A DNA stretch of 26,874 nucleotides from positions 1-26,874 of IMG/VR virus record IMGVR_UViG_3300030491_000222. One strand, 5' to 3'. The position numbers and the translations under genes were made by a program. This DNA is from a virus. This document shows positions 6,077 through 26,701 of the stretch, one piece after another. Numbering within the stretch: position 1 is the first letter of the stretch; each line of letters starts with the position of its first letter. The notes under the pieces were generated by a model. The model searched no databases and was not told the DNA's origin. It saw only the letters and a program-made list of their open reading frames with translations.

Positions 6077-6098
6077 TCCGCACATTCCAACGATAGCC

Positions 6099-6117: not shown

Positions 6118-6158
6118 CGATTGGCCCAGGCGTCCGCGCCGGGGCCCAAGGAGACCTC

Positions 6159-8344: not shown

Positions 8345-8347
8345 GTC

Positions 8348-9403: not shown

Positions 9404-9903
9404 GTGACCCCTACGACCCCTTTGCCCCCAATGACCCCAACGACTCCAACGCGGCAGACATGGACCTCCGTGCGCTCGATGGCGACTTCGCCGACGCCCC
9501 GGTGGAGGAGAAGAAATTCCAGGAGATCCCCGACGGCAAATATCAAGTCAGCGTCGACGGCGTGGAGATCACCAAGACCAAAGCGTCGGGCAAATCCATG
9601 CTGAAGTGGACGCTCAAGATCCGCGGACCGCGGTTCGCCGGCCGCCTGCTGTGGAAGAACAACGTGATGATCCCTGGCCCGAACATGGGTTGGTTGAAGC
9701 AAGATCTACGCACCTGCGGTCTCGAGCTCGAGCTGCTCTCCCAGCTGCGGGCGCACCTGCCGAGCCTGCTCGGCGTGTGGATTGAGGTGACGAAGAAGAC
9801 GGTGGGCGAGAACAGCAACATCTATTTCAACAAGCGCATCGCGACCGACGAGTCCTCCGGATCCGGGCATGGCGGCGAGAACTACGATGGCGTCCCGTTC
9901 TGA
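9400..9903 (+). CDS. DUF669 protein, likely phage ssDNA-binding protein
   Basis: A 167-residue protein with the DUF669 pattern: IPDGKYQVSVDGVEITKTKA, GKSMLKWTLKIRGPRFAGRLLWK, and a C-terminal beta part ending in VTKKTVGENSNIYFNKRI. DUF669 genes sit next to Sak4/recombinase genes in many phages, and several lines of evidence place them as SSB-like proteins. The extreme C-terminus (GGENYDGVPF) resembles the acidic tip D-D-D-I-P-F of bacterial SSB, which docks partner proteins, supporting that role here. The N-terminal 30 residues are Asp/Asn/Pro-rich. It overlaps Sak4 by 4 nt and the nuclease gene by 17 nt. Confidence 0.85.
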   Translation: MSDPYDPFAPNDPNDSNAADMDLRALDGDFADAPVEEKKFQEIPDGKYQVSVDGVEITKTKASGKSMLKWTLKIRGPRFAGRLLWKNNVMIPGPNMGWLKQDLRTCGLELELLSQLRAHLPSLLGVWIEVTKKTVGENSNIYFNKRIATDESSGSGHGGENYDGVPF

Positions 9904-10336
9904 GCCGCTGTCGGTCGTCGTGGACACGCGCGAGCAAGAGCCGTACGTGTTCGCGTCAGAGCACGTCGCGGTGGTGCGCCGCGCGCTTGCCGCCGGGGAC
10001 TACTCGCTCGACGGTCACGAGACCACCGTCGCGGTCGAGCGCAAGTCCCTCGACGACTACGTCGCGTCGGTGATCGTGGAGCGTGAGCGCTTCCTGCGCG
10101 AGCTCGCGCTGCTCGCGAAGTACGAGCTCGCGTGCGTCGTGGTGGAGGCCACGCTCGAGGACGTGATCGCCCACCGCTACCGGTCGGGGGCGCATCCCAA
10201 CTCGGTTGTCGGAGCGACGCTGGCGATCATCGTGGACCACCGCGTGCCCGTGTACTTCTGCGGCGACCGCCAGCTCGCGTGTCGGATCGTCGAGGGGATT
10301 CTCCGTCGTTACCACAAGAAGGTCCGCGCATCATGA
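9887..10336 (+). CDS. ERCC4-domain structure-specific nuclease
   Basis: A 149-residue protein that is essentially one ERCC4 (XPF/Mus81-type) nuclease domain. The metal-binding and catalytic signature is intact: VVDTREQEPY (D13, E16), LAAGDYS (G37-D38) and VAVERKSLDDYV (E51-R52-K53, D56). The end (CGDRQLACRIVEGILRRYHKK) is the usual C-terminal helix. There is no helicase or HhH2 domain, as in stand-alone phage versions that probably cut branched DNA. Start at 9887 is preferred over ATG 9869, which is also open. TGA overlaps the ATG of the helicase gene (ATGA), so it is coupled to RecD2. Role in processing recombination or replication intermediates is inferred. Confidence 0.88.
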   Translation: MASRSEPLSVVVDTREQEPYVFASEHVAVVRRALAAGDYSLDGHETTVAVERKSLDDYVASVIVERERFLRELALLAKYELACVVVEATLEDVIAHRYRSGAHPNSVVGATLAIIVDHRVPVYFCGDRQLACRIVEGILRRYHKKVRAS

Positions 10337-13300
10337 GCCAACCGGCGAACGCCGCGGCGGTGACCCTGCGGGGTCGCGTCGAGGTCGTGTTCTACTCCAG
10401 CCCGAAGTTCTCGAGCGGACGGTTGCGGGTAGCTCCCGAGAAGACCGTGTCGTTCGCCGGGGCCTTGATGGTCCGCAAACACGACCCCGTGATCCTGCAC
10501 GGGGTCTGGGACATGCACCCGAAGTACGGGCGGCAGTTCAAAGTCAGCCACTTCGAATTCGATCAGCGGCTCGACGCCGAGGGCCTCGCGCACTACCTCG
10601 CGAACCACCCCACCCTCAAGGGCATCGGGCCGGCGAAGGCGCGGCGGATCGCTGATGCCTTCGGCGACGATTTTGACCGCGTCATCGACCAGGCGCCGGA
10701 CCGGATCGGCGAGGTCGCCAAGCTGTCTCGCGCAGCCGTGGAGACCCTGCGCGACGAGTGGACCCGGACGCGGACGCTGAACGCCAGCCTGACCTGGCTG
10801 GCGAGCTTCGAGCTCACCCATCACCAGATGGCGAAGCTGATCTCCAAGTTCGGCAACGCGATCGTCACGGTGCTCCAGAACGACCCGTACCTGCTGGTCC
10901 GGGAGATCCCGGGGTTCGGGTTCAAGCGCATCGACCAGGTCGCGCGGAAGATGGGGATGCCCAAGGACCATCGCTCGCGGGTCCGCGCCGGCCTTGCCCA
11001 CTGCGTGGCAGATCGGCTCGACCAGGGCGACTGCTGGGTCGACTACGCCGACCTCATCGAGCTCGCGAACGCGTTGCTCGTGATGGACGTCGGCGATAGC
11101 CGGGATCGCATCGACGCCGCGCTCGGCGAGCTCGTCGCCGATGGCACGCTCGCGTGCGAGTCGATCGGCGGCCACTTCCTCGTCGCGCAGCCACGCATGC
11201 TCCAGATGGAGCAGGACCTCGCGGCGGTGTTCACCACCAAGCTCGGTCCGAACCCGCACTTCGCCAGCGTCGCGGGTGACGCAGGCGCCGCCGCGACCGC
11301 CGCGCGGATCGATGCCGTGGATTCCCAGCTGAACGTCGGACAGCGCCGGGCGGTCGAGCTGGCGCTGGCGCACAACCTGGTGGTGGCGAGCGGCGGCGCC
11401 GGTGTCGGGAAGACCCGGTTCGTCGCCGCGTTGGCCAAGGTTTACGAAGCGGGCGGGCGCACGGTGGTCCTCGCGGCGCCCACCGGCAAGGCTGCCAAGC
11501 GGATCGAGCAGGTCGTCGGCCGCGCCGCGCTCACGATCCACCGGCTCCTCGGCTACAAGGGCAAGCAGTTCACGCGTGGCATCGACAACCCGGTCGAGGC
11601 CGACGTCGTCATCATCGACGAGGTCTCGATGGTCGACGTGCCGCTCGCCTGGCATCTGTTCCGGGCGATCGACTTCACCAAGACGTGCGTCGTGCTGGTC
11701 GGGGATCACAACCAGCTGCCGCCGGTCGGGCCCGGCAACGTCCTCCGGGATCTGATCGAGCGCCAGCCGGTGCCCACCGTGATCCTGGATCAGGTCGTGC
11801 GCCAGGCCGGCGTGCTCAAGGAGAACTCGATCGCCGTGCTTCGCGGCGCCGTGCGTCCCACCGCGGACAAGGAGGCCGATGGTCGGCGCCCGTGGGTCGT
11901 GCTCAACCAGCTGACCGAGGTCGCCGACGCGCAGCAGAGCGTCCTCGAGCTGTACGACACGGTGCTGGTGGAGAAACTCGGGTTCGATCTACTCGCCGAC
12001 GTCCAGCTCTTGACCCCGACCCGCAAAGGGCCGCTCGGGGTCGACGCGCTCAATGTCGAGTTGCAGCGGCGGGTTCAGCGCAAGCTCTGGGGCGTCGACG
12101 TGCCGCCCGCGCGGCCCGGTTGGCGACCCGAGTTCCTCGCCCACGATCGGGTGATCCAGACGCGGAATAACTATGACCTCGATGTGATGAACGGGTCGAT
12201 CGGCACGGTGATCGAGGTGGGGCCCAACCGCGGCGAGCTCAAGGTGCGGTTCGACGACGACGACGTCACGTACACGGCGGAGACGGCGCGCGAGTTGTCG
12301 CTCGCGTACGCCTTGACCGTCCACAAGTGCCTGCACCCGGACACGCTGGTCGAGACGCCCGAAGGGCTGTTTCCGATCCGCTCGATACGCCGCGACGCCG
12401 GCGTCGTGGCGACCCCAGAAGGCCCGCGCGGATACGACAGCTTCGTCGAGAACCCCAGCGGCGAGTTGCTCGAGCTCGTCACCCAGGATGGATATCGGCT
12501 CACCGTCACCCCCGAGCATGGCGTCGACGTCTGGACCGACGCGGGGCTCTCACGCGTCTGTGCGCGCGACATCTCCGCGGGCGACCTGTTGCGGTTGAAG
12601 CTCGGCGTGACGTGCGATCCGATCGAGGCGCCGCTCCTCGGTGAGCCGCCCGAGGCCCATGCCAGCGCGCGCCGCTATCGATACCCGCGCGTCGTGACCC
12701 TGGAGCTCGCGGAGTTCCTCGGCCTCATGGTGGCAGACGGGACCCTGTTCGAGCGCGGGATCTGCCTGGTCAAGCGGCACGCCGACGTCCGCGACCGGTT
12801 CGCGTCGCTGTGCGAGACGTTGTTCGGGGCCACGCCGCAGCGCTACGCGGTCGGGAAGTCGTACGCTGCCAAGGTCGGCAGCCGCGAAATCGCCGCGTGG
12901 CTGCGCCAGCTCGGCGGCATGGAGCCACGTGCCAAGGCCGTGCCCGACTGCATCCTGCGCTCGCCGGTGGCGCTCCACGTCGCGTTTCTGCGCGGCCTGT
13001 TCGAGAACGGGACGGTCCAGCTTCGCCCGGACGGTGTGCTCGACCGCATCGAGTGGAAGACGACGTACCCCGCGCTCGATCAGACCGTCCGAACGATGTT
13101 GCTCCGCCTGGGCATCATCACCGGCACGACGCCGAGCCGGCCCGGATCGGTCTACCTGTACGGCGCGAACGCGCGCCGGTTCCGCGAGCAGGTGGGCTTC
13201 GTCGCGGCGTTCAAGCAGGCGCGGGCCGCGGGCCCGGTGGGCGTCGAGACGCGGTACGCCCTGCCGCTCACGGATGAAGAGGCGCGGCGCATGTGCGCGG

Positions 13301-13887
13301 CGCTGGTGCCGATCGGCGCGCTCACGCCGGCGATGGCGGGGAGTATCGGCCTCCAGGGGAAGATCAGCCGCCACGTGGCCGGGATCGCGCTGTCCCGAGT
13401 CGCAGCGACGCGGGCAGTCGCCGATGCCGCGGGCGCCACGCCCGAGACGCGCGTGACGTGCGAGACGCCCGAGACGCCCGAGACGCCCGAGACGCCCGAG
13501 ACGCCCGAGACGCCCGAGGAGAGCCTGTTGCGCAAGCGCCTGGGGTTCCACTACAGCGCTGTGCGCGAGGTGCGGCGGCTTGCCGGTCCGTCGATGTGCA
13601 TCCGGGTCCCCGACGGGAGCCGGTTCCTGCAGAACGGGTTCAGCGCCTGGAACAGCCAAGGCTCCGAGTTCCCGTGCGTGATCTTGGTCGTCCACAAGGC
13701 GCACGCGTTCATGCATCACCGCAACCTGTTCTACACGGGCGTGACGCGGGCGCGGAAGGTGGCGATCGTCGTCGGTGACCACTGGGGAATCACCAACTGC
13801 GCCCAGAAGCAGCAGGTCGAGCGCCGCCGGACGTTCTTGTCGCTGCTGGACTTGACCCGCCAGGTCAGGAGTCGAGGGGACGCATGA
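10333..13887 (+). CDS. RecD2-like SF1B DNA helicase, intein-containing
   Basis: A 1184-residue precursor; removing the 442-residue intein leaves about 742, the normal RecD2 size. The N-terminal beta domain precedes two helix-hairpin-helix segments (LKGIGPAKARRIADAFGDDF and IPGFGFKRIDQVARKMGM). Helicase motifs in order: Walker A GGAGVGKTRF at about 355, Walker B VVIIDEVSMVD at about 427, motif III LVGDHNQLPPVG at about 455, and the UvrD_C_2 elements DRVIQTRNNYDLDVMNGSIG at about 606, YALTVHK / SQGSEFPCVI split by the intein, and YTGVTRARKVAIVVGD. Predicted 5'-3' DNA helicase in the replication operon. ATGA overlaps join it to the nuclease upstream and the primase downstream. Confidence 0.93.
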   Translation: MSQPANAAAVTLRGRVEVVFYSSPKFSSGRLRVAPEKTVSFAGALMVRKHDPVILHGVWDMHPKYGRQFKVSHFEFDQRLDAEGLAHYLANHPTLKGIGPAKARRIADAFGDDFDRVIDQAPDRIGEVAKLSRAAVETLRDEWTRTRTLNASLTWLASFELTHHQMAKLISKFGNAIVTVLQNDPYLLVREIPGFGFKRIDQVARKMGMPKDHRSRVRAGLAHCVADRLDQGDCWVDYADLIELANALLVMDVGDSRDRIDAALGELVADGTLACESIGGHFLVAQPRMLQMEQDLAAVFTTKLGPNPHFASVAGDAGAAATAARIDAVDSQLNVGQRRAVELALAHNLVVASGGAGVGKTRFVAALAKVYEAGGRTVVLAAPTGKAAKRIEQVVGRAALTIHRLLGYKGKQFTRGIDNPVEADVVIIDEVSMVDVPLAWHLFRAIDFTKTCVVLVGDHNQLPPVGPGNVLRDLIERQPVPTVILDQVVRQAGVLKENSIAVLRGAVRPTADKEADGRRPWVVLNQLTEVADAQQSVLELYDTVLVEKLGFDLLADVQLLTPTRKGPLGVDALNVELQRRVQRKLWGVDVPPARPGWRPEFLAHDRVIQTRNNYDLDVMNGSIGTVIEVGPNRGELKVRFDDDDVTYTAETARELSLAYALTVHKCLHPDTLVETPEGLFPIRSIRRDAGVVATPEGPRGYDSFVENPSGELLELVTQDGYRLTVTPEHGVDVWTDAGLSRVCARDISAGDLLRLKLGVTCDPIEAPLLGEPPEAHASARRYRYPRVVTLELAEFLGLMVADGTLFERGICLVKRHADVRDRFASLCETLFGATPQRYAVGKSYAAKVGSREIAAWLRQLGGMEPRAKAVPDCILRSPVALHVAFLRGLFENGTVQLRPDGVLDRIEWKTTYPALDQTVRTMLLRLGIITGTTPSRPGSVYLYGANARRFREQVGFVAAFKQARAAGPVGVETRYALPLTDEEARRMCAALVPIGALTPAMAGSIGLQGKISRHVAGIALSRVAATRAVADAAGATPETRVTCETPETPETPETPETPETPEESLLRKRLGFHYSAVREVRRLAGPSMCIRVPDGSRFLQNGFSAWNSQGSEFPCVILVVHKAHAFMHHRNLFYTGVTRARKVAIVVGDHWGITNCAQKQQVERRRTFLSLLDLTRQVRSRGDA
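12328..13653 (+). other. Intein in RecD2 helicase with degenerate LAGLIDADG endonuclease
   Basis: In-frame insertion of 442 residues between host K665 and S1108, splitting the helicase motif VHK/SQGSEF. It starts with Cys (CLHPDTLVETPEG, block A), has block B TPEHGVD, a LAGLIDADG-type domain with LAEFLGLMVADGTL and FLRGLFENGTVQL, and block F/G MCIRVPDGSRFLQNGFSAWN ending in Asn with Ser as +1. The second LAGLIDADG motif has lost one residue and has Asn where the catalytic Asp is expected, so cleavage is probably impaired. The penultimate residue is Trp rather than His. Composition matches the host gene, pointing to long residence. A six-unit ETP repeat lies before the C-terminal splicing part. 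Confidence 0.93.
13462..13515 (+). repeat. 9-bp tandem repeat (GAGACGCCC) x6 inside the intein
   Basis: Six perfect GAGACGCCC units encode (Glu-Thr-Pro)6, a flexible linker between the endonuclease region and the C-terminal splicing block. The perfect identity suggests recent slippage expansion. Confidence 0.95.
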
Positions 13888-16706
13888 CGCCCGGCGCTCC
13901 CTCGGCGGTCGGGGATGCACTTCGGCTCCTGCACGCGCGGTTCCTGAATCGGACCGACCTCGTGGCGATCCATGCGCCGTGGGGCAAGCCGTTCCCGGTC
14001 GACGCGAACAGGACGCTGGACGACCTGCTCCTGGCCCACCTGCTTGGCGAGGCGGCTCCGGTCGCCAAGGTCGCATACTCCAACCGCCGGGGCGCGGGGG
14101 TGATGGCGGGACACTACCGGGTCGGGAGCTACAGCCCGGCGACCGACGGCACAACCCGCTGGGTGTGCCTCGACTTCGACGGCGCGGGCCACGCCAACGC
14201 CCTCGCGGATCCGCAGGCCGCCGCGCTCTTGGCCTGCGACGCGTTCGCGGCTGCCGGGTTGCCCTCGTACCTCGAGCGCTCGGGCGGCGGAACCGGCTGG
14301 CACGTGTGGTGCTTCTTCGATCCACCGCTGCCGGCCGGGGAGGCCCAGGCCCTCGGCCGCGTGATCGCCCCCAAGCAGGCGCCGCTCGCCGGATCGAGCG
14401 CGTTCGCGGACGCGCGATCTGCGCGCGGGATCGAGGTGTTCCCGAAGCAGTCCAAGCTCAGCCGGCGCGGCTTCGGCAACCTGGTGTGGTTGCCGTGGTG
14501 GCACGGAGCCCCGGCCGGCGCGAACGCGTTCTATCGCCGCGCGCACGACCGCACGCTGGAACCCTACGTGCCCACCGAGCTCGAGGTCGCTGCGCCCGAG
14601 GCGGTCGAGCGGTTGCTCGCACAGCTGCCGGTGCCCGCGGTGGGACCGCGGCCCGCACCGCGTCCGGGCACCGGGCCGCGTCCGGACAAGGGAGCCAAGC
14701 AACCACCGCCTCCACCACGTCCGCGACCGGCGCCGGACGCGGCGGCGACCGGCGAGACCGGCACTACCGGCGATAGCGTCTGGGGCGCGTGGCGGCGCAA
14801 GGCGCTCGCGGCGTTGCCGCTCGAACCCATCTACGCTGCGTGGCTGACCGGGCGGGCCGCCGGTGTGGGATGGCTCGAGTGCCGGGATCCAGCGTCGCCA
14901 TCCGGCGACCAGACCCCGTCGGCGGGCGTGGCCGACGGCACCGGCGAGGCCGAGCGCGGAACGTTCCACTCGTTCATCGACGAGCGGAGCCTCTCGGTGT
15001 TCGACTTTCTGGTCGCTCACGGCGGGGTCGCCGACTTTCGCGCCGCGCGCGCGCGCGTCGCAGATCTGTCCGGTGTTCAAGCGCCACCGGGCGGCGTTCC
15101 CGTGCCACCGGCCGGCATTGGCGAGCACCCGGCTGGCGTTGGCGAGCCACCGGCTGGCGTTGGCGCGACAGGATCTGACGAACCGAGTGGGAAACAGGGC
15201 CGGCGACCGGAGATCCAGATCAACGATCGCTTGCTCGACGACATCGTCCGCGACGCGTGGCGGGCCGTCCATGACGCGAACAGTCGCGAACCGACGATGT
15301 TTGTCCGGGACGGCGCGCTCGTGCGCATCGGCCATGGTGAGCAGGGCCGGCGTATCGAGCACATGACCGAGGTCTCGGTGTTCGGCCACCTCGGCAACGT
15401 CGCAGACTGGGTGAGGGTCACCGACTACGGGAGCCACTACACGCTTCCGAGCAAGGACGCCGCGCGCGCCATGCTCGACGTTCCTGACCCTTCGTTGCCC
15501 TCACTCAACGCGATCGTGAGCACTCCCGTCTTTACCCCCCAGGGGACCCTGGTCGCGACCCCGGGTTACCATCGCGAGGCGCGAGTCTGGTACGAGCCGC
15601 CGCACGGGCTGGTCATCCCCCAGGTGCCCGAGCAGCCCACGGCCGCGGCCGTGGCACAAGCTCGCTCGCTTCTTCTGAGTGAGTTGCTTGGCGAGTTTCC
15701 GTTCGTCGACGCCTCGGCCAAGGCGCACATGGTGGCAGCGATCTTGTTGCCGTTCGCTCGCCGGCTGATCCAGGGCGCGACCCCCATCCATCTGGTCGAA
15801 TCGCCGACCGAAGGCACTGGCAAGGGACTGCTTGTCGACATGATCGCGATCATCGCGACGGGGGTCGCCGCCTGTGGCGGTTCACTGCCCGAGAGCGAGG
15901 ATGAGGTCCGGAAGAAAATCGGCTCGGAGCTCTCGAGCGGGCGTCCGCTCCTCTTGCTCGACAACGGCGTCAACAAGCGATCGATCGACAGTGCTGCGCT
16001 CGCGTCGGCAACGACGATGTGGCCGACGTGGACCGACCGCCTCCTGGGCCAGATCAAAATGTTCACTGTGCCCAATGACGTCGTGTGGATCCTCACCGCG
16101 AACAACCCCCGCCTGTCGCGCGAGCTGACGCGGCGAAGCGTGAGCATCCGCATCGACGCCGGCATCGACCGACCCTGGCTGCGCAAGGGCTACCGTCACG
16201 CCAAGCTTGTCCGCTGGGCGCACGGCCACCGCGCGGAGCTCATCCACGCAGCCCTCCTGCTCATCCAGAACTGGATCGCCCAGGGGCGGCCCGCTGGCAG
16301 CTGTGTCATGGGCCGCTTCGAGGAATGGTCGGAAATCATGGGCGGCATCGTCACGGCCGCTGGCATCGAAGGATTTCTCGGGAACCTCGATGTCCTCTAC
16401 GCGACCACGGATGCCGATGGCGCCATGTGGAGTGATTTCCTCGCGGCGTGGTGGGATGCCTACCAGGACCGCCCGGTCCGCGTGGCCGAGCTCGTCGAGC
16501 TTTGCGCACGTGGCGAGTTCATGGCACGGGTACTCGGCGACGGCTCCGTGAAGTCACAGACCACGCGCTTGGGGAATGCCCTGCAGAACGCGCGGGATCG
16601 GGTGTTCGAGGGCCTGCGGATCGAGTTCGCCGGTCGTGACTCCATCTCAAAACGACCCACCTATCGAGCGGTGGAGATCCTACCGACCGAGAAGAAACCG
16701 ACCTGA
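13884..16706 (+). CDS. AEP primase fused to AAA+ helicase-like ATPase
   Basis: A 940-residue replication protein. The N-terminal archaeo-eukaryotic primase domain (about 20-215) has VCLDFDGAGHA (catalytic DxD near 97), SGGGTGWHVWCFF near 132 and RGIEVFPKQ with GFGNLVWLP near 180-195, as in TOTE-type primases. A Pro-rich linker (250-295) follows, then a segment (310-385) shaped like a DnaG/CHC2 zinc finger but lacking most ligands (LECRDPASPSGDQTPS, FHSFIDERSLSVFDFL). A second, four-unit linker precedes the C-terminal ATPase: Walker A SPTEGTGKGLL near 638, Walker B LLLLDN near 688, sensor-1 WILTANNPRLS near 737, arginine finger RELTRRS. Such fusions prime and unwind phage or plasmid replication forks. 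Its ATG overlaps the helicase stop. Confidence 0.9.
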   Translation: MTPGAPSAVGDALRLLHARFLNRTDLVAIHAPWGKPFPVDANRTLDDLLLAHLLGEAAPVAKVAYSNRRGAGVMAGHYRVGSYSPATDGTTRWVCLDFDGAGHANALADPQAAALLACDAFAAAGLPSYLERSGGGTGWHVWCFFDPPLPAGEAQALGRVIAPKQAPLAGSSAFADARSARGIEVFPKQSKLSRRGFGNLVWLPWWHGAPAGANAFYRRAHDRTLEPYVPTELEVAAPEAVERLLAQLPVPAVGPRPAPRPGTGPRPDKGAKQPPPPPRPRPAPDAAATGETGTTGDSVWGAWRRKALAALPLEPIYAAWLTGRAAGVGWLECRDPASPSGDQTPSAGVADGTGEAERGTFHSFIDERSLSVFDFLVAHGGVADFRAARARVADLSGVQAPPGGVPVPPAGIGEHPAGVGEPPAGVGATGSDEPSGKQGRRPEIQINDRLLDDIVRDAWRAVHDANSREPTMFVRDGALVRIGHGEQGRRIEHMTEVSVFGHLGNVADWVRVTDYGSHYTLPSKDAARAMLDVPDPSLPSLNAIVSTPVFTPQGTLVATPGYHREARVWYEPPHGLVIPQVPEQPTAAAVAQARSLLLSELLGEFPFVDASAKAHMVAAILLPFARRLIQGATPIHLVESPTEGTGKGLLVDMIAIIATGVAACGGSLPESEDEVRKKIGSELSSGRPLLLLDNGVNKRSIDSAALASATTMWPTWTDRLLGQIKMFTVPNDVVWILTANNPRLSRELTRRSVSIRIDAGIDRPWLRKGYRHAKLVRWAHGHRAELIHAALLLIQNWIAQGRPAGSCVMGRFEEWSEIMGGIVTAAGIEGFLGNLDVLYATTDADGAMWSDFLAAWWDAYQDRPVRVAELVELCARGEFMARVLGDGSVKSQTTRLGNALQNARDRVFEGLRIEFAGRDSISKRPTYRAVEILPTEKKPT
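15084..15167 (+). repeat. 21-bp in-frame repeat in the primase linker, four units
   Basis: Four 7-residue units, PPGGVPV, PPAGIGE, HPAGVGE and PPAGVGA, start at 15084, 15105, 15126 and 15147. They join the zinc-finger-like part to the ATPase part and look like a slippage-expanded flexible linker. Confidence 0.85.
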
Positions 16707-16727
16707 TTGTCACTGAAGGAAACTGAC

Positions 16728-17303
16728 ATGTCCCGAATCACGAAGGCCCCATTCGGCAAATTCTCGTTGCGCTTTCTCGACAGCTTCGCCGAGGCGATCC
16801 ACGGTATCGTCGCGAAGCCCAGACGGATCGTCGCCTGGCGCGACGAGCACACCCTCAATCGGATTGAGCTATTGCGCTGGGTCTGGCCCAATCAGCACCA
16901 ACCGCGAGCGCCGCGAATCATACGGATCGGCATGAACACGCACTGGTTCAAACCATCCCAAACGCTACTCCGAGGGCTCGGCTTCGATCCGTTGTGGCCG
17001 CCTGACTACCGGGAGTGCCTGCGGCTCGAGTGGAGTCTGCTCGAGCACGAGCTTCTCGAATTCGCCACGTGGCTCCCATCGTGGATCGCGGGCCGGCGGG
17101 ATGGCGCGCTCGAGATCCCCGTGCCCCCGCAGCCCAGTCACGTGTTCGGCGCTGGATTACGAGGCACCTGCTACGCTTGGACGGTCGCCGCGTGGGAGGT
17201 CTGCGCACGGTGGGACCGGCAGAGCGGTCGGCTGCCTTGGTATGCGATCCACGCGTCGCAGGTCGTGCCGGCGGCACCGGAGCTTCAGAATCCGATCGAG
17301 TGA
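16728..17303 (+). CDS. Unrecognised 191-residue protein after the primase
   Basis: Starts at ATG 16728, seven bases after AAGGA; an in-frame TTG at 16707 is less well supported. The sequence is Trp-rich (about ten Trp) and Arg-rich, with no known motif: an N-terminal basic part (SRITKAPFGKFSLRFLDSF), an RIGMNTHWFKPSQTLLRGLGF segment, and a C-terminal AGLRGTCYAWTVAAWEVCARW. Lying 21 bases after the primase stop, it is probably the last gene of the replication operon, next to the repeat-rich intergenic region. A DNA-binding or origin-related role is possible but nothing in the sequence shows it. Confidence 0.75.
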   Translation: MSRITKAPFGKFSLRFLDSFAEAIHGIVAKPRRIVAWRDEHTLNRIELLRWVWPNQHQPRAPRIIRIGMNTHWFKPSQTLLRGLGFDPLWPPDYRECLRLEWSLLEHELLEFATWLPSWIAGRRDGALEIPVPPQPSHVFGAGLRGTCYAWTVAAWEVCARWDRQSGRLPWYAIHASQVVPAAPELQNPIE

Positions 17304-18094
17304 TCGCTTCCACCGCGGAACACTGAGCGTCGCCGGTCGCTGGTCGGCGAGTGTCATAGTCACGGGGTGTCGTGGGGTGCCGTGGCATGCGCCGTGCGTA
17401 GCGCGGACGGCCGAACGTAGTTGACCACGTTGGCGCGGCCCGCACCCCAAGAGCGTGAGCAAGCATCAAGCGCGCGCGCCATCGCGATCCCGCCATCGCG
17501 CCATCGTCGCGCCGTGAGGAGCTCAGGGGCCTTCGTGTGCCATCGAGTACGGCCCAGCACGTCCGGGGCGAGTTCTGACGGCTCGACACGGTGGCGCGCT
17601 TCGCGCGCCAGTTCGCTACGGTGGAGTGCTTCGCGTGTCGGGTGTCCTGGCGCCACCATCGTCGTCAGCCATGCGATCGGCGCCGTGGCCGCGGCCGGCC
17701 CGAGCTACCACGCCATAGTGACTAATACTCACATTGGGTCGCACGATCCGGTCGAGGTGCGGGCCGGGGATCCAGACGGCTACTCACGAGGTGACTAATA
17801 CTCACATTTGCGTCAGCGTGAGCCGGCCGAACGGATCGCGGCGCGCCCCAGATCCCGACGTATCTGCCCGACCTGTCGGATGAATACGCCCGACCTCGAG
17901 GGCAGTGGAGCTGGCGACTCGCCGCCGAGCGAGTCGCGACGAGCACCGTCGGGACTCCGCTTCCTCGGAGGATGCAGCCCGCCACAGACATCAATGAAAA
18001 CAGCGATGTTCGGCACCTCTTGGGTGTTTCGCTGCTGGCGTTCGAATGGCTTCCGAGAAACAACCTAAGTGAAAACAGCTATCTACGAGATCTG

Positions 18095-18391
18095 CGGCAC
18101 CTTCGGCACCTCGAAAACGGTGGGTTTTCAAAGGTGCCGTAAGAATTAGCTCAGTAAAACTCGATATCTATGAGGGTCTACGGCACCTACGGCACCTTCT
18201 CCTGCCCTCTCTAAAGAGCCAACGTGACTATCACTCACATTATGAATATGACGTGTAGTCATAATGTGAGTGTTATGCCCTGACGCTATAGGAGGGGGAC
18301 AGCCAGACGTGCCGTAGGTGCCGAGGTGCCTAAGATATTTGTAATCTAAGGGGAAACTGTTACGGCACCTTGTGGGCACCCTACGGCACCT
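18095..18391. repeat. CGGCACCT iteron-like array, both orientations
   Basis: Exact CGGCACCT starts at 18095, 18104, 18181, 18190, 18363 and 18384 on the plus strand, and its complement AGGTGCCG starts at 18132 and 18316, with degenerate copies at 18324 and 18374. Two pairs are spaced exactly 9 bp. Extended copies read TACGGCACCTT. The density (eight exact copies in about 300 bases) is far above chance and typical of initiator-binding iterons. Confidence 0.75.
18232..18272. repeat. Perfect 14-bp inverted repeat
   Basis: CACTCACATTATGA (18232-18245) and TCATAATGTGAGTG (18259-18272) are exact complements with a 13-base spacer. Each arm contains half of the GTGA-N7-TCAC operator family. It can form a cruciform or bind two dimers face to face. 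Confidence 0.9.
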
Positions 18392-18821
18392 TGCCCAACG
18401 TGGCTTCGCCTGCGGCCGATAACTAATTGTAATCTCGTAGGGGGTCCCCGTCGACCGCCTCGCGCAGCGCGAATGTGAATATTAATCACTATGTGAATAG
18501 CGGTTGGATCTGCCGGCCCGGTAGCGCGGGGCGGACGTGGCCACGGCGCTGATCGCGACGCCGAGCTCGCCCAGCGCGGGCGATGGATCAGCGGCGACCT
18601 CGGTCGTCGCGCTCCTGACCTTGAACGGCACCGCGCTGCGCGTATTCGAAGCTGCACGTTGCTCGACCGGTCGACGGCCGACCGGGCGCACGCGGCGCTG
18701 ACGTTCGCGAAGGCGGCAACGGCGGTGACGCCTTGGGTACCCGGCAGGCACCCGCAGGCACTTCGGATCGTCGCCGTGTCGCAGCAGTCGATCTCGCCGG
18801 CCCCGGGGCTGGCGGCGCTGC

Positions 18822-18990
18822 GTACTGATAGCAATGATGGCCGGCGCTGCGTACTGATAGCAATGAACACCGCGCGCGGCGCTGCGTACTGATAGCAATG
18901 AACACCCCGTGCGGACTGCGTACTGATAGCAATGATGAACGGGGCTGTGTACTGATAGCAATGAACGGCGCTGTGTACTGATAGCAATGA
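18822..18990 (+). repeat. Six-copy GTACTGATAGCAATGA array upstream of terS
   Basis: Six exact 16-base copies start at 18822, 18851, 18886, 18920, 18949 and 18975, at 26-35 bp spacing, each usually preceded by GGCGCTGC or GGCTGT. The array ends 46 bases before the small terminase ATG. Location suggests a terminase-recognition (pac/cos-like) site or an activator array; the gaps between copies are too short for CRISPR spacers. Confidence 0.9.
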
Positions 18991-19036
18991 TCATCATTAG
19001 TGCTGTTCAGGGCTAGACAAAGATATCGGTATCCCT

Positions 19037-19861
19037 ATGCTGGAGTCTGTGAGCGATGCAGTTCCACCCGGCACGCCGCCGGTCGCCGACGGTGCGAAGC
19101 CCAAGCGCCCGAAGGGGCGACCGAAGCGCGAAGACGCGCCGATCATCGACTGGCACGCGGTCGACGCGGCGCTGGTCTTCGGTGAGCGTCTGGTCGATCC
19201 GGAGACCGGCGTCGAGACGCTCCGCTTTCCATCGCTGGCGATCCTCGCAAGGCGCTACGGCGTCAGTGCGAATCGCATGTGGATGTACGCGAACCGGGCA
19301 CGATGCTTCGAACGCCGCAAGGAGGCCCAGCTCAAGGCACAGGCTCGGTTCGAGTCGAAGATGATCGAGAAGCAGTCCAGCTCTCGCGCGGATGCCACCG
19401 CGAACGTCGTCGAAGTTGTGGACGCTTACATCGTCGGTTTCAAACAGGCGCTCGCCGAAGGCAAGGTCCGCTTTGACTCGCCTTCAGACCTCGATCGCCT
19501 CGTCCGTTTGAAGGAGCTGCTGTCTGGCAACGCGGACTCGCGTGGCGATTCGCAGCTCACGATCTCCCTCGAAGAGATCCAGCAGCGCCATCGCCAGGTC
19601 CGCAGCCAACTCGACAATATGACGCCCGAGCTCGCGGGCACCGCGTCCGCACACCAGGACGCGGCGACTCCTCGCGTTGCCACGGCTCCCGCGACCGGTG
19701 CTGGCAGTGCTGGCAGCGCGCCCGGCGGCGACAATCTCGACGCCCGTGGCTCTCTCGACGCCCGTGGCTCGGCTGGCGCCGGCATCGCGGCCCGTGCCAG
19801 CGGCGCGGCTGGCGGCGACGGACTCGACGATGAGGGGGATGGCGATGTCAGCAACCCCTGA
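19037..19861 (+). CDS. terS: Phage terminase small subunit
   Basis: A 274-residue protein. After a basic linker ([13 protein letters not shown]) comes a helix-turn-helix at about residues 55-80 ([20 protein letters not shown]), the DNA-recognition fold of small terminase subunits. Helical segments follow ([20 protein letters not shown], then [19 protein letters not shown] and [15 protein letters not shown]), consistent with the oligomerisation region. The last 70 residues are an Ala/Gly-rich disordered tail with two LDARGS units. No clear ribosome-binding site is seen. It lies 46 bases after a six-copy repeat array and upstream of the large terminase, though separated from it by a reversed recombinase gene. 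It would recognise the packaging site and load DNA onto TerL. Confidence 0.75.
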
Positions 19862-19875
19862 GCGAGTTGGAGATG

Positions 19876-19897
19876 GCCAGGTCTTCACAAACCTGGC
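19876..19897. other. Hairpin just after terS
   Basis: GCCAGGT-N8-ACCTGGC is a perfect 7-bp stem starting 14 bases after the terS stop, followed by another partial copy (GCCAGGCC). There is no T-tract, so termination is uncertain. Confidence 0.35.
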
Positions 19898-20611
19898 AAT
19901 GCCAGGCCCGGATCTGCCCCCCAAGACTACGGAGTTCCAAGGGGTTAGATCGGCCGCTCCCTGGGTCGGACATGGCCAGGTTGCGGGATCCGCAGTGCCC
20001 AGCAGCTCGGCTTGCGGCCCCGGCAGCACGGCGCGGCTCCACACCGCCGCCGCTTGTTCAGCGGCCGTTGTCCCGCCACTCGGCCTCGGTCCCGCGCCCG
20101 ATTCGCCCCTGGGCGTGCTCGCAGGCGGGGCCGCGGTCTACCTGCCCGGACCCATCATCGACGCGCCGTGCGCGAACGTGGCGCGAACCGTGGCCGATCC
20201 GAAGCGACCGGCACCGCACGTGGACGCCGCGCGCGCGACCCGACTGCGCACGTCAGCAAAGGGTGTGCCACCCCCGGCCCCCGTTTCCCCGTTTTCGAAC
20301 GACGCCCCGGGCGTGCCTACTGGCGCCTTCCATGGAGCTGGAAATCGGGAAATAGACGATCTCGCAAGTGCCGAGAATCGCGTGTTCCGAAATCCGGAAA
20401 TGCCCATTTGGGGAAATGGGTCGCCGGAAAAAATGGATGGGCTCGTTTTGTCCGTGAACACGGCCGGGGATCCAGAGTCAGTAGCTTCCACATATGGGCA
20501 GTCCATTACTGCCAATCAGTTGTCAGGCCAGCCACTGCAAGGCTCGGCCCGGCAAGGTGCGCCATGGCAAGGCTCGGCTCGGCCCGGCCCGGCACGCCAA
20601 GGCACGGGGAC
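19898..20611. other. Gap without a supported gene; low-GC island with GGAAAT repeats
   Basis: The frame that leads into the large terminase is open through this stretch but has no ribosome-binding site or family-like sequence, and later it is antisense to the recombinase, so it is not a TerL N-terminus. From about 20280 to 20530 GC falls; GGAAAT-type words recur (20338-20440) and CCCATTT-GGGG-AAATGGG forms a perfect 7-bp hairpin at 20403-20420. After that comes a GGCTCGGCCCGGCAAGG-type GC-rich microrepeat (20540-20605). Confidence 0.5.
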
Positions 20612-20647
20612 GGGTGGGCTCGATGGCGCAAGCGGTCGAGCCCACCC
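20612..20647 (-). terminator. 12-bp stem hairpin behind the tyrosine recombinase
   Basis: GGGTGGGCTCGA-N12-TCGAGCCCACCC is a perfect 12-bp inverted repeat, starting eight bases beyond the stop codon of the minus-strand recombinase. Position and stem strength fit a terminator, but no T-run follows on the minus strand, so a recombination- or protein-binding role is also possible. Confidence 0.5.
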
Positions 20648-20654
20648 TTCCAAC

Positions 20655-21272
20655 TCAGCAGAGCTGATCGCGGACCGCGTCCATGATGTCCTGGTCGCTG
20701 GGCGCGGCGTACCTCATGGTGGTCTCGACGCTTTTGTGCCGGGCGATGCGCTGGACGAGCAAGATGTCGCGCGTGCGTCGCTGAACGGCGGTCAGCGCGG
20801 AATGGCGCAGCGCGTGGAACGGGAACAGCTGGTCGAGCCCGGCGCGTTGCTGCCAGGTGCGGAACAGATGACGGATCGTGCGCAGGGCGATCCGCTGCCG
20901 GCGACTCGAGATGAACAGCGGAGCGTCGGGCGCAAGGCTCTGGTCGTGCGACCGCTTCCAGGCGATGAACTTCGTGAGCTTGTGCCAGACGCGGTCGGGC
21001 AGGAAGATCTCCTGGATCGCCGGCTCGTCGGTGGACCGCTTGAACACGCGCAGGGTGATGCGCCGTCGAACGCGGCCGTCCCGGTTCAGGACGTCTCCAA
21101 TGTCGAGCGCGGCGATCTCGTGCTGGCGCAGCGCGGTGCCGAGCGCGATCGACAGGATGACGTGGTCGCGAAACCCGGCGCGGTGCTCGCCGGTGACCTT
21201 GAGGACGCGGGCCTGCTCGAGCTCGGTGAGGGTGCGGGGCGGGCGGCGGATGCTGGAAGCGTACGCGGGCAT
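20655..21272 (-). CDS. Tyrosine recombinase, catalytic core only
   Basis: A 205-residue tyrosine recombinase. The catalytic set is complete: R49 ([13 protein letters not shown]), H153 and R156 ([13 protein letters not shown]), H179 ([10 protein letters not shown]) and the nucleophile Y188 ([12 protein letters not shown]). The start is firm: AAGGAGG six bases before ATG at 21272. The usual 90-100 residue N-terminal SAM-like DNA-binding domain is absent, leaving a size like FimB/FimE-type invertases rather than classic phage integrases. It lies antisense between the two terminase genes and has its own hairpin after the stop. It could integrate the phage, resolve dimers or invert a segment; the sequence does not decide. 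Confidence 0.88.
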
Positions 21273-21326
21273 GAACAACCTCCTTCCAACACTCACGCTC
21301 TTCCTGGGAACGAAGGCAAGCCGGGA

Positions 21327-22790
21327 TTGCCAGGTTCGTCGACGGCGCAGGGTCCCTTGCTCGTCGGCAAACGCAACGAGCAAGATCTGCTCGATTGGCT
21401 CGGAACTGAGGCGGGTTTCTTGAGCGCCCTTGGGCGCTACAATGAGGAGCCGCTGGTGTTCGAGAAGTACCAGCTGGCTTTTCTCGAATCCAAGTCCCGA
21501 TATCGCTGGGTCGAGAAGGCCCGACAGGTGGGGTATTCGTTTCTGTTTGCCTGCGAGGCCGTCGCGCGCTGCCACCTGCGCGAGGCGCATACCGCAGTGA
21601 TGGTCTCGTACAACCTCGAGGATGCCAAAGAAAAAGTGAATTACGCTCATCAGCTCGCCGAGGAGCTTCCCCTGGCTTATCGGAAAAAGTTGGTGATCGA
21701 CTCCCGCACGGAACTGGGCTTCCTCTCCAATGGTGCGTCGAAGCGGGTCTCGCGCATTATCTCGAATCCCTCGAAGGCGCCACGCGGTAAGAAGGGCGAG
21801 GTCTACCTCGACGAGCTCGCGCACTACGCGAACGACCGCGAGGTCTACAAGGGATCGACCGCGCTCATCCTGCGCTCGCGCGGCCAGCTGACCGGCTGCT
21901 CGTCGCCGCTCGGTCGGCGCGGCGTGTTTTGGCAGATCGCAAGGGAAGAACTCCGGAAGTATCGCGCCTACTGGCGGCAGCAGGTCCCGTGGTGGCTGTG
22001 CAGCTTCCTCTGCATCGACGTGGCGCGCGCGGCGAAAGACGCGCCGCTCATGACGACCGAGGAGCGCGTCCGGACGTTCGGAACGAAGGACATCAACGAC
22101 CAGTTCGACGCCTTGGCTCTGGACGATTTCCAGCAGGAGTTTGAGAACGCCTACTGCGATGAATCCTATTCGTTTTACAGCTATGAATTGATCCTCCCGT
22201 GCACGACGGACGACCTCGTGATGGCCGACGACTTCGCCACGTTCGGCGACGTCTCAGGCCGCCTGGTCGCCGGGTTCGACGTCGGTCGCAAGCGCGACCT
22301 GTCGGAGCTGTCAATCTTCGAGCAGACGGGCGGCAAGCACGTGTGCCGGATGCTGAAGAGCTACGACAAGGTCCCGTTCGCCGACCAGGAGGCCGACCTC
22401 CGCCGCATGCTGACGACGCTGCCGATCGGCCGGCTGTCGATCGACCAGAACGGCATCGGCATGCACCTGGCCGAGAACCTCGGCCGCGACTTCGGCTGCG
22501 TGGTGCCGGAGACGTTCACGAACGAGTCGAAGGAGATCTGGGCGACGGACTTCAAGATCCTCCTGCAGCGCAAGGACGTCGTCTTGCCCAAGGATCGCGA
22601 GCTCGTGGCGCAGATCCACGGCGTGAAGCGCGGGCTGACGCCGACGGGGAAGCCGTCGTTCGAGGTCGAGCGCGACGCGGGTGGCCGCGGGCATGGGGAT
22701 CGCTACTGGTCGGTGGCCCTGGCCTGTCAGAAGGAACGCGGCCCGCTGCCAGGCGCCGTGACCGAAATCAACGTTCGAATCATTGGATAA
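21327..22790 (+). CDS. terL: Phage terminase large subunit
   Basis: Packaging ATPase/nuclease of about 487 residues. Motifs: adenine/Walker-A-like region FEKYQLAFL then [14 protein letters not shown], Walker [12 protein letters not shown], motif [14 protein letters not shown]; nuclease acidic residues in [30 protein letters not shown] and [12 protein letters not shown]. This is a complete two-domain TerL. The start is uncertain: there is no ATG. TTG 21327 or TTG 21357 keep the family-like N-terminus ([20 protein letters not shown]); GTG 21456 has the best ribosome-binding site (GAGGAG, six bases) but would trim it. It is divergent from the recombinase gene, with about 55 bases between. Drives DNA into the prohead through the portal encoded downstream. 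Confidence 0.92.
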
Positions 22791-23373: not shown

Positions 23374-23669
23374 TGGCTCGGCCCGAGCAGATGCCGCTCG
23401 AGGTGCCGGCGGCCGCCGGCGTGGGGTCCCCCGCGAATGTGTTTCGGCTGCGCGACAAGACCGTCCAGGTCTCGGGGCCGTTCGTCGGCTCGCTCCAGCT
23501 GGAGGGCAGCATCGACGGTGAGAACTTCGAGGCCATCGGCGCGCCGCTGACCGCGCCCGGCTTCGTCCTCCTCCCGCTGACCGTCGAGTTCGTGCGCGTG
23601 CGGACGAACCAGCTCACCTCCGGCGCGCCGCGGGCGATCGCCGCCGGCTTCGACTTCCGAGCGCTGTGA
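23373..23669 (+). CDS. Small phage structural-like beta-sandwich protein
   Basis: A 98-residue protein; GGAGG seven bases before ATG 23373. The segment KTVQVSGPFVGSLQLEGSID, then GENFEAIGAPL, PLTVEFVRVRTNQL and AAGFDF follows the alternating pattern of a short beta-sandwich seen in many phage capsid-decoration or structural proteins (S-G-x-F-x-G-x-L-x-L-E-G-S-x-D-G). It overlaps the portal start by one base (TGATG), so it is coupled to the portal. Family assignment is by pattern only. Confidence 0.65.
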   Translation: MARPEQMPLEVPAAAGVGSPANVFRLRDKTVQVSGPFVGSLQLEGSIDGENFEAIGAPLTAPGFVLLPLTVEFVRVRTNQLTSGAPRAIAAGFDFRAL

Positions 23670-26600
23670 TGACCGACGAGACCGGCCACACCGCCGATAC
23701 GTCCCCCTCGGGTTCGACCCTCGACGTCGACGAGGCCGTGCGCATGCTGGGCGACCGGATCGCCCTCATCAAGGCGCACGTCCTGGGCGGCGACGCGGGC
23801 CGCGTCGCCGACTCGAACGCGATGCCCTGGGCGGACGCCGAGCAGCGCGAGCAGGTGTTCGCCGGCATGGGCGTGGTCACGCCGCCGTACGACCCCGAGA
23901 CGCTGGCCATCCTGTTCGAGAACTCGTCGTCGCTCCGCCAGAACGTCGACGCCTACGTCACCAACATCGACGCGTTCGGCCACCGCTTCGAGCCGGTCAT
24001 TGACCTCGACGCGAGCGATGCGGACCACCGGATCGCCAACGCGCTGTTCGTGGAGCGCCAGCGCAAGAAGTCCGCCCCCCGGTTCCGCGATGACCCGAAG
24101 GTCCAGGCGCTCGCGAACACGCCGACACCCGACGAGGTCGCGGCGAAAAAGGCCGAGGTCACCGAGCACATGCGGCTCGAGAAGTCCCGGCTCGAGACCT
24201 TCTTCGAGTTCGCGTGCATCGACCTGTCGTTCGTAACGCTGCGGCGGCGCACGCGGCAGGACCTCGAGATGATGGGCAACGGCTACTGGGAGGTCTTGCG
24301 CGACGGCGGCGGCGAGCTCGCGCAGTTCGTGTACCTGCCCGGCTTCACGATGCGGCTCCTGCCGCTCGACGCCGAGCTCGTCGAGGACGACCTGAACATC
24401 AAGGTCTCCGAGCTGTCGTTCGACACGATGAAGGTGCGGAGGCGGTTCCGGCGCTACGTCCAGGTGTTCGAGCAGCAGGTCGTGTTCTTCAAGGAGTTCG
24501 GCGACCCGCGGTGCATCTCGCGCAAGTCGGGGCGGGCGTACGCGTCGATCGACGAGCTCGTCGCTGCCGACCCCGACGACGGGCCGGCGACGGAGGTCCT
24601 CCACTTCAAGATCCACAACGCGCGGTCGGCGTACGGCATCCCGCGGTGGATTGGCAACCTGCTCGCGGTGCTCGGCTCGCGGCAGGCTGAGGAGGTGAAC
24701 TACCTGTACTTCGAAAACAAAAGTGTACCACCACTTGCATTGCTCGTCTCTGGTGGTCGGCTATCTGCCCAGTCGATCCCGCGCATCGAGAGCTACATCG
24801 AGAACAACATCAAGGGGAAGCGGAACTTTCATCGCGTGCTCGTGATCGAAGCCGAGTCGTCGAGCGGCGGCAGTAATCACGAGCACACCGGGCGGATGCG
24901 GATTGAGCTGAAGCCGCTCACCAACGCGCAGCAGTCGGATGCAACGCACCTTGCCTACGACGAGCGTAACCACGACAAGGTCGGTCAGTCGTTTCGACTG
25001 CCACGCTTACTCCGCGGAGACATTCGAGATTTTAATCGGTCGTGTTACTCGGCAGACACCGAGACGCTGACCGAGAACGGCTGGAAACTTCATCAGGAGA
25101 TCGCAGAGGACGAGCGTATCGCGGTGTACGATCCCGAGCGCGACGAGCTCCGGTTCGAAGTTCCGGTGAGCAAGCACGTGTCGTTCGTTCGCGAGGACCT
25201 GATTCGTTTCGTTGGCAAGCATACGGACGTGCTCGTCACACGTGATCACAAGATGCTTGTCCGATGCCCGGATCGGTCCTGGACGATAGAGCCCGCCGAA
25301 GAGACCGCCCGTCGACGCGTGTTCGAGTTCATCTGCGTGCCGGGGACCGATGCTGCCGGAGAGGAGCTGATCGACCTCACCCTTCCCAAGGTCTGCAAGA
25401 TCGAACGCGGGCACCGGCATGAGCCGATCCGAGGCGATCTCTGGATCGAGTTCCTCGGCTACTTCATGTCCGACGGAGGGCTGCTCGAGACCGACCACCC
25501 GACAGCGCCCTACCTCGTGTTCGTTCGCCAGAAGAAGCGGCCGTACCGGACTCGTATGCAGACCTGCCTCGAGCTCATTGGCTGGAAGTTCTCCACCCAG
25601 ATCAAAGAGGACGGCACGCACGTGTTCTGCATCTCGAACCGCTGCCTGCGCGATTGGCTCGTGACCCACTGTGGTGGGCGGAGCGCGGGACGGCATCTGC
25701 CGTGGTCCTACGTCACCGGGCTTCCGGTTCGCCAGCTCCGGATTTTGTTTCGCGCGATGATGGACGGTGACGGAACACGCACCGCGAACCTGCGAGGTGG
25801 CAGCTACTACACCGCGTCCTCCGTACTGGCCGGTCAAGTGCAAGCCATGTGTTTGCGGCTCGGGTACCGCGCTCATTACCGGTGGGTAGCGCAAACCGGT
25901 GTATTTCGAGTTCAGCACGTCGAGCGTTGGAGCACGATCATGACGAGCGCTCGACACGTTGAGGTCGTTCCGTACGAGGGCGAGGTCTACTGCTACTTCT
26001 GCCCCGGCGCCGGGTTCTTTGTCACCCGCCGCAACGGCAAGGTTGCCATCCAGGGCAACACCGGCGACGCGGCGCTCATGTTCGCCGAGATGCAAGTGTT
26101 TCAGCCCGAGCGCGAGGAATTCGATTTTGTCATCAACCGCAAGATTCTCGCCGACATGGGCATTCGGTTCTGGCGATTTCGATCGAACTCCCCCGTCACG
26201 CGCGACCCGGCCGCGATGGCGGAGATCGTCCGCAGCCTCACCAACGCAAACATCCTCACGCCCGAGGAAGGCCGGCTACTCGCGAGCGACGTGTTCAATC
26301 GCGAGTTCAAGAAGATCTCCGCCGCGTGGGTCAAGCAGCCCGTCGCGCTGACCTTGGCCGGCATCGCCGCCGCGCCCGAGCCCGAGAGCACGCTGGCCGG
26401 GCCCGACGTCCAGAAGGGCGACACGACGACGGGCGACCTGGCCGCTGCGGGCGGCATCCGCGCACCCGCCCAGGGCCAGGGCCCAGGCGGACGTCGGCGC
26501 CGCGGCACGCCGGACCTCGTCGACGAGGCGGCACGACTGATCGCGATCCGCAACGCGTTGCGCGACGCCGAGGGCCGCGAGGCCCAGCGCGCATTCGAGA

Positions 26601-26701
26601 GCGACAAGCGCGCCGAGCTCGAGCTCGAGCGCGAGGTCATCAAGGTGCCAGCCGACGAGCTGGCCAGCTGGTTCGAACCCGAAAGCACACCGTCCCCATG
26701 A
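23669..26701 (+). CDS. Phage portal protein (PBSX-type), intein-containing
   Basis: A 1010-residue precursor; without its 339-residue intein it is about 671 residues. Portal features: early LAILFENSSSLRQNVDAYVTNIDAFGHRFE, the wing/stem part FACIDLSFVTLRRRTRQDLEMMGNGYWEVLRDGGG, VLHFKIHNARSAYGIPRWIGNLLAVLGSRQAEEVNYLYFEN, and SFRLPRLLRGDIRDFNRS, the PBSX-family signature just where the intein is inserted, continuing TGDAALMFAEMQVFQPEREEFDFVINRK. The C-terminal 100 residues are a Gly/Ala-rich then charged tail. The portal forms the dodecameric channel at the capsid vertex that docks TerL. Coupled to the genes on both sides by overlaps. From about 24713 to the intein the codons become A/T-richer than the first kilobase. 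Confidence 0.92.
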   Translation: MTDETGHTADTSPSGSTLDVDEAVRMLGDRIALIKAHVLGGDAGRVADSNAMPWADAEQREQVFAGMGVVTPPYDPETLAILFENSSSLRQNVDAYVTNIDAFGHRFEPVIDLDASDADHRIANALFVERQRKKSAPRFRDDPKVQALANTPTPDEVAAKKAEVTEHMRLEKSRLETFFEFACIDLSFVTLRRRTRQDLEMMGNGYWEVLRDGGGELAQFVYLPGFTMRLLPLDAELVEDDLNIKVSELSFDTMKVRRRFRRYVQVFEQQVVFFKEFGDPRCISRKSGRAYASIDELVAADPDDGPATEVLHFKIHNARSAYGIPRWIGNLLAVLGSRQAEEVNYLYFENKSVPPLALLVSGGRLSAQSIPRIESYIENNIKGKRNFHRVLVIEAESSSGGSNHEHTGRMRIELKPLTNAQQSDATHLAYDERNHDKVGQSFRLPRLLRGDIRDFNRSCYSADTETLTENGWKLHQEIAEDERIAVYDPERDELRFEVPVSKHVSFVREDLIRFVGKHTDVLVTRDHKMLVRCPDRSWTIEPAEETARRRVFEFICVPGTDAAGEELIDLTLPKVCKIERGHRHEPIRGDLWIEFLGYFMSDGGLLETDHPTAPYLVFVRQKKRPYRTRMQTCLELIGWKFSTQIKEDGTHVFCISNRCLRDWLVTHCGGRSAGRHLPWSYVTGLPVRQLRILFRAMMDGDGTRTANLRGGSYYTASSVLAGQVQAMCLRLGYRAHYRWVAQTGVFRVQHVERWSTIMTSARHVEVVPYEGEVYCYFCPGAGFFVTRRNGKVAIQGNTGDAALMFAEMQVFQPEREEFDFVINRKILADMGIRFWRFRSNSPVTRDPAAMAEIVRSLTNANILTPEEGRLLASDVFNREFKKISAAWVKQPVALTLAGIAAAPEPESTLAGPDVQKGDTTTGDLAAAGGIRAPAQGQGPGGRRRRGTPDLVDEAARLIAIRNALRDAEGREAQRAFESDKRAELELEREVIKVPADELASWFEPESTPSP
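25043..26059 (+). other. Intein in the portal protein with intact-looking LAGLIDADG endonuclease
   Basis: In-frame 339-residue insertion between host S458 and T798. It begins CYSADTETLTENGW (block A, Cys nucleophile), has block B TRDHKML, two LAGLIDADG-like motifs (FLGYFMSDGG and LFRAMMDGDG) each ending in the catalytic-position Asp, block F YCYFCPGAGFFVTRRNGKVA, and ends IQGN with Thr as +1. The penultimate residue is Gly instead of His. Its GC and G/C-ending codon share are visibly lower than the host, in contrast to the helicase intein, pointing to more recent arrival and a possibly active homing endonuclease. Confidence 0.95.

Follow-up and report, generated by a model that had tools for sequence, protein, structure and literature searches.

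A candidate iteron replication origin in a temperate phage and its probable recognition by the phage's own primase-helicase

We present evidence that an array of short repeats at positions 18011-18391 of a 26.9-kb temperate phage fragment from a virus record (26,874 nucleotides; the whole stretch analysed, which we refer to as the window) is very probably a replication origin, and is best explained as one bound by the phage's own primase-helicase. An earlier note, made by reading the DNA letters, had proposed a candidate iteron origin at this location. That proposal is supported by the conservation of the array together with the helicase gene, by the fixed geometry of the repeats, by covariation of the helicase's winged helix with the letters of the repeats, and by the DNA footprints of RepA, the homologous helicase of the Streptomyces plasmid pWTY27 (PMC3583192). 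Because of the covariation, the shared layout and the RepA footprints, we take the array to be a self-loading-helicase origin, which is a known kind. The initiator would most likely be the primase-helicase itself and not a separate Rep protein.

The array and its surroundings in the window

The left part of the window contains a serine recombinase gene (435-2039) beside a DUF2924 gene, and genes for a Sak4-like annealing protein, a DUF669/SSB-like protein and an intein-bearing RecD2 helicase (ORF 10132-13887) lead up to the gene for a primase-helicase of 940 amino acids (13884..16706, + strand), which was assigned by a Pfam AEP-TOTE match (1.4e-18), an AF2 model and fold matches. This gene is followed by a small ORF (16707..17303, + strand) that matched no known family and has counterparts of about 58% identity in the sister prophages L028 and L035. 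A non-coding gap of 1.7 kb then extends to terS (19037), beyond which lie, in order, an antisense tyrosine recombinase gene, terL and an intein-bearing portal gene. The earlier note had left room for a phage-plasmid, which finds no specific support here; the terS, terL and portal genes together with two recombinases indicate a temperate phage, whose closest relatives are mostly prophages of myxobacteria.

Some other features of the window deserve mention. The tyrosine recombinase gene (20655-21275, - strand) is odd next to the serine recombinase gene at 435-2039, and its antisense placement between terS and terL makes the terL ORF appear falsely long (19677-22790); the same arrangement occurs in nine relatives (L009, L010-L012 and L014-L018; 51-100% identity). 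Probable inteins with LAGLIDADG domains occupy approximately residues 733-1161 of RecD2 and 528-797 of the portal protein (ORF 23666-26701), and both are missing from the copies in several relatives. Within the RecD2 insertion, at 13438-13518, ACGCCCGAG is repeated nine times in tandem and encodes a short tripeptide repeat.

The array lies 0.7-1.1 kb past the small ORF and 0.65-1.0 kb upstream of terS. Eight exact copies of CGGCACCT, on both strands, had been reported in 18095-18391, a count we find to be correct, and a ninth exact copy lies just beyond that range (18011..18018, - strand). The window holds ten copies in all, a number that none of 100 dinucleotide shuffles reached (mean 1.6), and nine of them lie in 18011-18391; the Poisson probability of nine copies in 381 bp is approximately 4e-21. 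With one copy outside the array, the motif is not evenly spread over the 26.9 kb of this fragment, contrary to the equal genome-wide frequency that the earlier note named as a refuting result. The two pairs at 9-bp spacing described earlier (18095/18104 and 18181/18190) are real, but the ordered part of the array had been undercounted, as a third pair with one mismatch is present on the opposite strand at 18307/18316 (followed by a repeat at 18324). Both of the 38-bp stretches that separate facing repeats are 63% AT, compared with 33% for the window.

With repeat orientation written as > or <, the window reads > 18132, 49, < 18181, 9, < 18190, 117, > 18307, 9, > 18316, 47, < 18363. Outside this core on the left are the exact outer iteron at 18011 and an outer-left tandem pair (18095..18111, - strand). 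The core itself opens with the left facing iteron, AGGTGCCG on the + strand (18132..18139), which is followed by the left AT-rich interval, a candidate unwinding element (18140..18180; 63% AT over the 38 bp at 18143-18180), and by the inner-left tandem pair, "< 9 <" (18181..18197, - strand), a candidate primary binding site whose pWTY27 equivalent has been footprinted with DNase I. Beyond the central spacer (18198..18306) come the inner-right iterons, "> 9 > 8 >" (ACGTGCCG, AGGTGCCG and AGGTGCCT; 18307..18331, + strand), the third of which is overlapped by the right AT-rich interval, a second candidate unwinding element (18325..18362; 63% AT). The right facing iteron at 18363 and the outer iterons, a degenerate GGGCACCC at 18374 and a further copy at 18384, complete the array (18363..18391, - strand). 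The central spacer is polypyrimidine by the left inner pair and polypurine by the right, as it is in many members of the family.

Two other repeat families share the gap with the array. Several copies of the palindrome GTGACTAATACTCAC (17718, 17791, 18224, 18258-18275 and 18475) are operator-like and confined to the gap, and two of them form an inverted pair (18224-18275) within the central spacer; for these reasons a regulator binding the palindromes might gate the origin. The palindrome was not found in sister phages. Six direct repeats of TACTGATAGCAATG (G[CT]GTACTGATAGCAATG-like) at 18820-18989, spaced 26-35 bp apart and ending 47 bp before terS, are a candidate for a pac site bound by the small terminase or for a late regulatory element, and were not found in the relatives scanned for them. 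Neither of these two families was found in the sister prophage L035, even though the array is kept there.

A shared geometry among relatives

Searches of viral contigs with the primase as a single protein or as two proteins gave no matches, and an alignment of 15 helicases was required to find relatives. A genome scan with two helicase domains returned 16 loci, mostly from Myxococcota, and nearly all of them contain a dense array of related, differing repeats. Relatives of the primase-helicase occur mostly in phages and prophages and in some plasmids, and the letters of the equivalent arrays differ by lineage, being AGGTGCCG in the window and AGATCCCG, AAGTCCGG and ACGTTCCC in others. Contig G003 (loci L011 and L022), a terminase relative, has the window's replication genes in unchanged order and a helicase domain approximately 42-44% identical to that of the window; its array precedes terS and is made of TGCGGGATC[T], against TACGGCACC[T] in the window, in overlapping 9-bp tandem pairs of both orientations with AT-rich gaps. 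In L035 the order is primase-helicase, small ORF, array, terS, intY and terL, and the iteron is nearly identical to that of the window.

Read in one direction, the repeats share a dyad-symmetric layout, > 47 < 9 < ~100 > 9 > 47 <, and in most cases further repeats at 11-13 bp lie outside it. The distance from facing iteron to tandem pair is 47-49 bp, the tandem spacing 9 bp and the central spacer 63-124 bp. The complete layout was found in 10 of the 12 lineages of the first set (random positions, mean 0.001 and maximum 1; shuffled orientations, mean 0.2 and maximum 3). The layout rule had been derived from these data, so it was retested on new loci using a detector blind to the letters of the repeats. 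Among 80 viral loci fetched later, approximately 52-53 scored 4 or less and approximately 70-71 scored 6 or less, as compared with 0 and 1 of the 80 shuffles, respectively. When relatives above 85% identity were removed, leaving 27 held-out loci, 19 scored 4 or less and 21 scored 6 or less (order-2 shuffles, 0/270), and clusters of at least seven copies of an 8-mer were present in 25 (shuffle maximum 5). Relatives that share the terminase and have no detected helicase give layout scores of at least 7.

The pattern has exceptions. Six of the 27 held-out loci miss the layout threshold, four of them still with iteron clusters; L053 and L098 are without clusters (the L098 locus stops soon after the helicase gene). 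One facing site is missing from L034 and likewise from L037, and the iterons of vir525 (L026) do not follow the layout. No array was found near the gene in large phages with distant homologues (DSS3_MAL1 and phiCbK). In some members (L028 and L039) the intervals are weakly enriched in AT, and the shift in GC skew across the array is slight and uninformative (mean +0.020; 25 of 34 loci, which are not independent).

Among 86 relatives, 66 have the whole core embedded in the helicase ORF, at its 3' end and in open frame (for example, L122:11440-11743). Many of these embedded cores are followed by a conserved C-terminal peptide resembling PDWLRELDP, and the ending in Myxococcus relatives is E(V/L)DPW; it is possible that this tail binds a replication partner. 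Comparison across the relatives shows that the array and the helicase behave as one unit.

The helicase, its winged helix and the letters of the repeats

The primase-helicase comprises an N-terminal AEP primase, an AAA+ helicase of the D5/SaPI-like type and a predicted C-terminal winged helix (approximately residues 843-931), whose recognition helix (approximately residues 889-902) includes K890 and T894. In the AF2 model of residues 440-940 (pLDDT 91), the AAA+ helicase ends in a helix-helix-helix-hairpin winged helix. Foldseek matches to solved relatives have E values of 1e-8 to 1e-6, and VIA-align, with a Z of 14.3, aligns 373 residues to 7ola (rmsd 6.2) and 317 to 8apl (rmsd 5.1). The closest relatives of known structure are the SaPI5 primase-helicase (7ola; 7pds with dsDNA), poxvirus D5/E5, NrS-1 and ASFV PrimPol. 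Since sequence identity is about 8-10%, the tie of the modelled domain to SaPI5/D5 helicases is one of fold.

The N-terminal primase is variable. Among 37 relatives it matches a TOPRIM family in 25, AEP-TOTE in seven and Prim-Pol in one. The G003 gene (L022:9187-12285) and the window gene (13884-16706) are syntenic and encode the same helicase with unrelated primases (DnaG-type CHC2/TOPRIM versus AEP), a difference that reads as domain replacement within one gene. The primase module thus appears exchangeable (AEP, DnaG-type TOPRIM or Prim-Pol), while the helicase, the winged helix and the array stay linked.

We compared the repeats with the proteins in a set of 36 non-redundant relatives, whose iteron registers were assigned by eye. 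The consensus over these proteins is A-N-R-Y-N-C-..., with A1 invariant. With the ATPase corrected for, iteron distance correlates with the distance between winged helices (r 0.38, p 0.001), and the reverse comparison gives r -0.12, indicating that the letters of the repeat follow the winged helix and not the ATPase. Phylogeny dominates the raw mutual information computed from repeat bases and protein columns; the top pair joins iteron base 8 to W130 of the model, and the winged helix holds 6 of the top 60 pairs against 12 expected. We therefore relied on coincidence of changes on branches and on held-out proteins. Residue 894 (T894 of the window, residue 455 of the model) was itself picked from the mutual-information list, in which it was second of all pairs, so that its agreement in the first set is no independent test: T or S occurs where base 3 is G in 28/28 proteins, V or I where it is A in 7/7, and C in one further protein with A. 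On a tree that leaves out the winged helix, the class of residue 894 and iteron base 3 switch on the same 6/6 branches (0/2000 permutations). Changes at residue 890 (K890 of the window, residue 451 of the model) and at repeat base 4 have four branches in common.

The held-out proteins were further relatives, less than 93% identical to the first set, with the register set from other positions only. Where the register was unambiguous, V or I at residue 894 went with A in 6/6 and T or S with G in 31/31 (p 4e-7); without the register-margin filter the counts were 9/9 and 34/37. For residue 890, again with unambiguous register, K or R went with T in 32/33 and other residues with non-T in 4/4. The pairing at this position is of K/R with T4 and of Q/H/L mostly with C4. 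The exceptions to the base 4 rule are L240 (R with C4), which is real, and L170 (Q with G4), which misfits the pairing of Q with C4; automatic register assignment fails on some arrays, and the apparent exceptions L156 and L149 are probably off by one base. These patterns are strong statistical support for the idea that the winged helix reads the repeats directly.

Such covariation bears on whether the repeats might instead be operators through which a phage regulator switches early or late transcription, a reading we consider improbable. The array does lie in a long non-coding gap ahead of the late (packaging) genes, and one promoter-like and one terminator-like match occur in or near it, no more than about two standard deviations from the mean of the shuffles. 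Operators would nevertheless be poorly sited inside the end of the helicase ORF, where most relatives have the core, and neither the symmetric geometry nor the tracking of the winged helix by the repeat letters is what this reading would lead one to expect; the gap, moreover, has in GTGACTAATACTCAC a separate and more operator-like palindrome, one not found in sister phages.

Known systems, proposed mechanism and significance

The array of pWTY27 provides an experimental parallel. The minimal replicon of this plasmid consists of repAB and a 300-bp iteron, and replication is bidirectional and of the theta type (PMC3583192). RepA alone binds the array specifically in vitro, with footprints at 405-447 and 462-509 (PMC3583192). 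We find that RepA is 32% identical to the protein of relative L106 over 96% of it, and that the array, in record coordinates, is palindromic and reads < 11 < 16 > 40 < 9 < 72 > 9 > 40 < 16 > 11 >, with the footprints coinciding with the two inner tandem pairs. Like the window, pWTY27 has a homologous helicase, iterons oriented both ways, 9-bp inner tandem pairs on either side of a central spacer, facing sites and an array downstream of the helicase gene (directly so in pWTY27). Unlike the window, it has a separate primase (RepB), facing intervals of 40 bp rather than 47-49 bp and the iteron GTTCCCAC. The original authors proposed that RepA recognizes a long stem-loop (PMC3583192); comparison across the family favours two mirrored half-origins, and the stem-loop model could be reread in those terms.

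Plasmid iterons are often bound by a separate Rep protein, and one could imagine that host DnaA, such a Rep or a ParB-like factor binds the array as an origin or partition site onto which the helicase is merely loaded. The small ORF at 16707-17303, kept beside the helicase gene in L028 and L035 and of no known family, might encode such a factor. That binding by another protein is the correct explanation seems to us unlikely, given that the covariation implicates the helicase's own winged helix, that pWTY27 RepA needs no partner to bind its array in vitro (PMC3583192), and that a sequence search of part 1-19900 of G003, which has an array, did not find the small ORF. Still harder to credit is a packaging (pac/cos) site read by the small terminase, which the position of the array upstream of terS in the window, L035 and L011 would suit, since the array follows the helicase gene where no terS is adjacent, in plasmids such as pWTY27 among others, and is missing from terminase-sharing relatives with no detected helicase, and since the six TACTGATAGCAATG repeats directly before terS are a better pac candidate.

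A replication origin bound by the primase-helicase also has parallels elsewhere. SaPI Rep uses its C-terminal domain to recognize iterons just past its own gene, and two hexamers have been proposed (PMC7581432). The SaPI Rep/SaPI5 primase-helicase and SCCmec Cch2 (PDB 7ola and 7pds) are self-loading initiators that combine a primase, an AAA+ helicase and a C-terminal DNA-binding domain, and the SaPI5 protein is the best structural match of the window helicase, at approximately 8% sequence identity. By analogy, the pWTY27 replicon and the SaPI parallel support the view that the array is an origin. In the phage/satellite P4, the alpha protein unites primase, helicase and origin binding and acts on short type I iterons, and P4 also requires the distant crr site. 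The origin of λ sits within the initiator gene O, as the core does in most relatives here, whereas the window array lies outside the gene; λ O is not a helicase.

We infer that each origin receives two hexamers, which melt the AT-rich intervals and give rise to bidirectional forks. The winged helix would bind each 10-bp repeat (5'-AGGTGCCGTA) and read base 3 through T894 and base 4 through K890. In each half-origin the inner tandem pair would nucleate one helicase hexamer, and the two hexamers, oppositely oriented and face to face, would melt the AT-rich 47-bp intervals and encircle single strands. They would then depart in both directions to establish the forks, with the fused AEP domain providing primers.

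Self-loading helicase initiators with iterons are already known. A literature search that covered few subscription journals returned no account of the fixed geometry, residue-base code or in-gene placement of this helicase family. We think it likely that the primase-helicases of many phages and prophages form a large family, most of it undescribed, with one fixed dyad origin geometry, read by the C-terminal winged helix through a residue-base code (T/S with G3 and V/I with A3 at the 894-equivalent; K/R with T4 and Q/H/L mostly with C4 at the 890-equivalent), such that specificity is predictable from the protein, primases are exchanged without change of origin, and the origin mostly lies inside the 3' end of the helicase gene. 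If the code is true, T894I or T894V would shift the preference from AGGTGCCG to AGATGCCG, and K890Q would shift it from AGGT to AGGC.

The origins of temperate phages are rarely known beyond a few models, and here a candidate origin, its proposed initiator and a testable protein-DNA code have been obtained from sequence alone for approximately 100 elements. The family offers a route to studying the paired placement of self-loading hexameric helicases on duplex DNA and the joint change in specificity of an initiator and its origin, and to asking why the primase module swaps while the helicase and origin remain linked.
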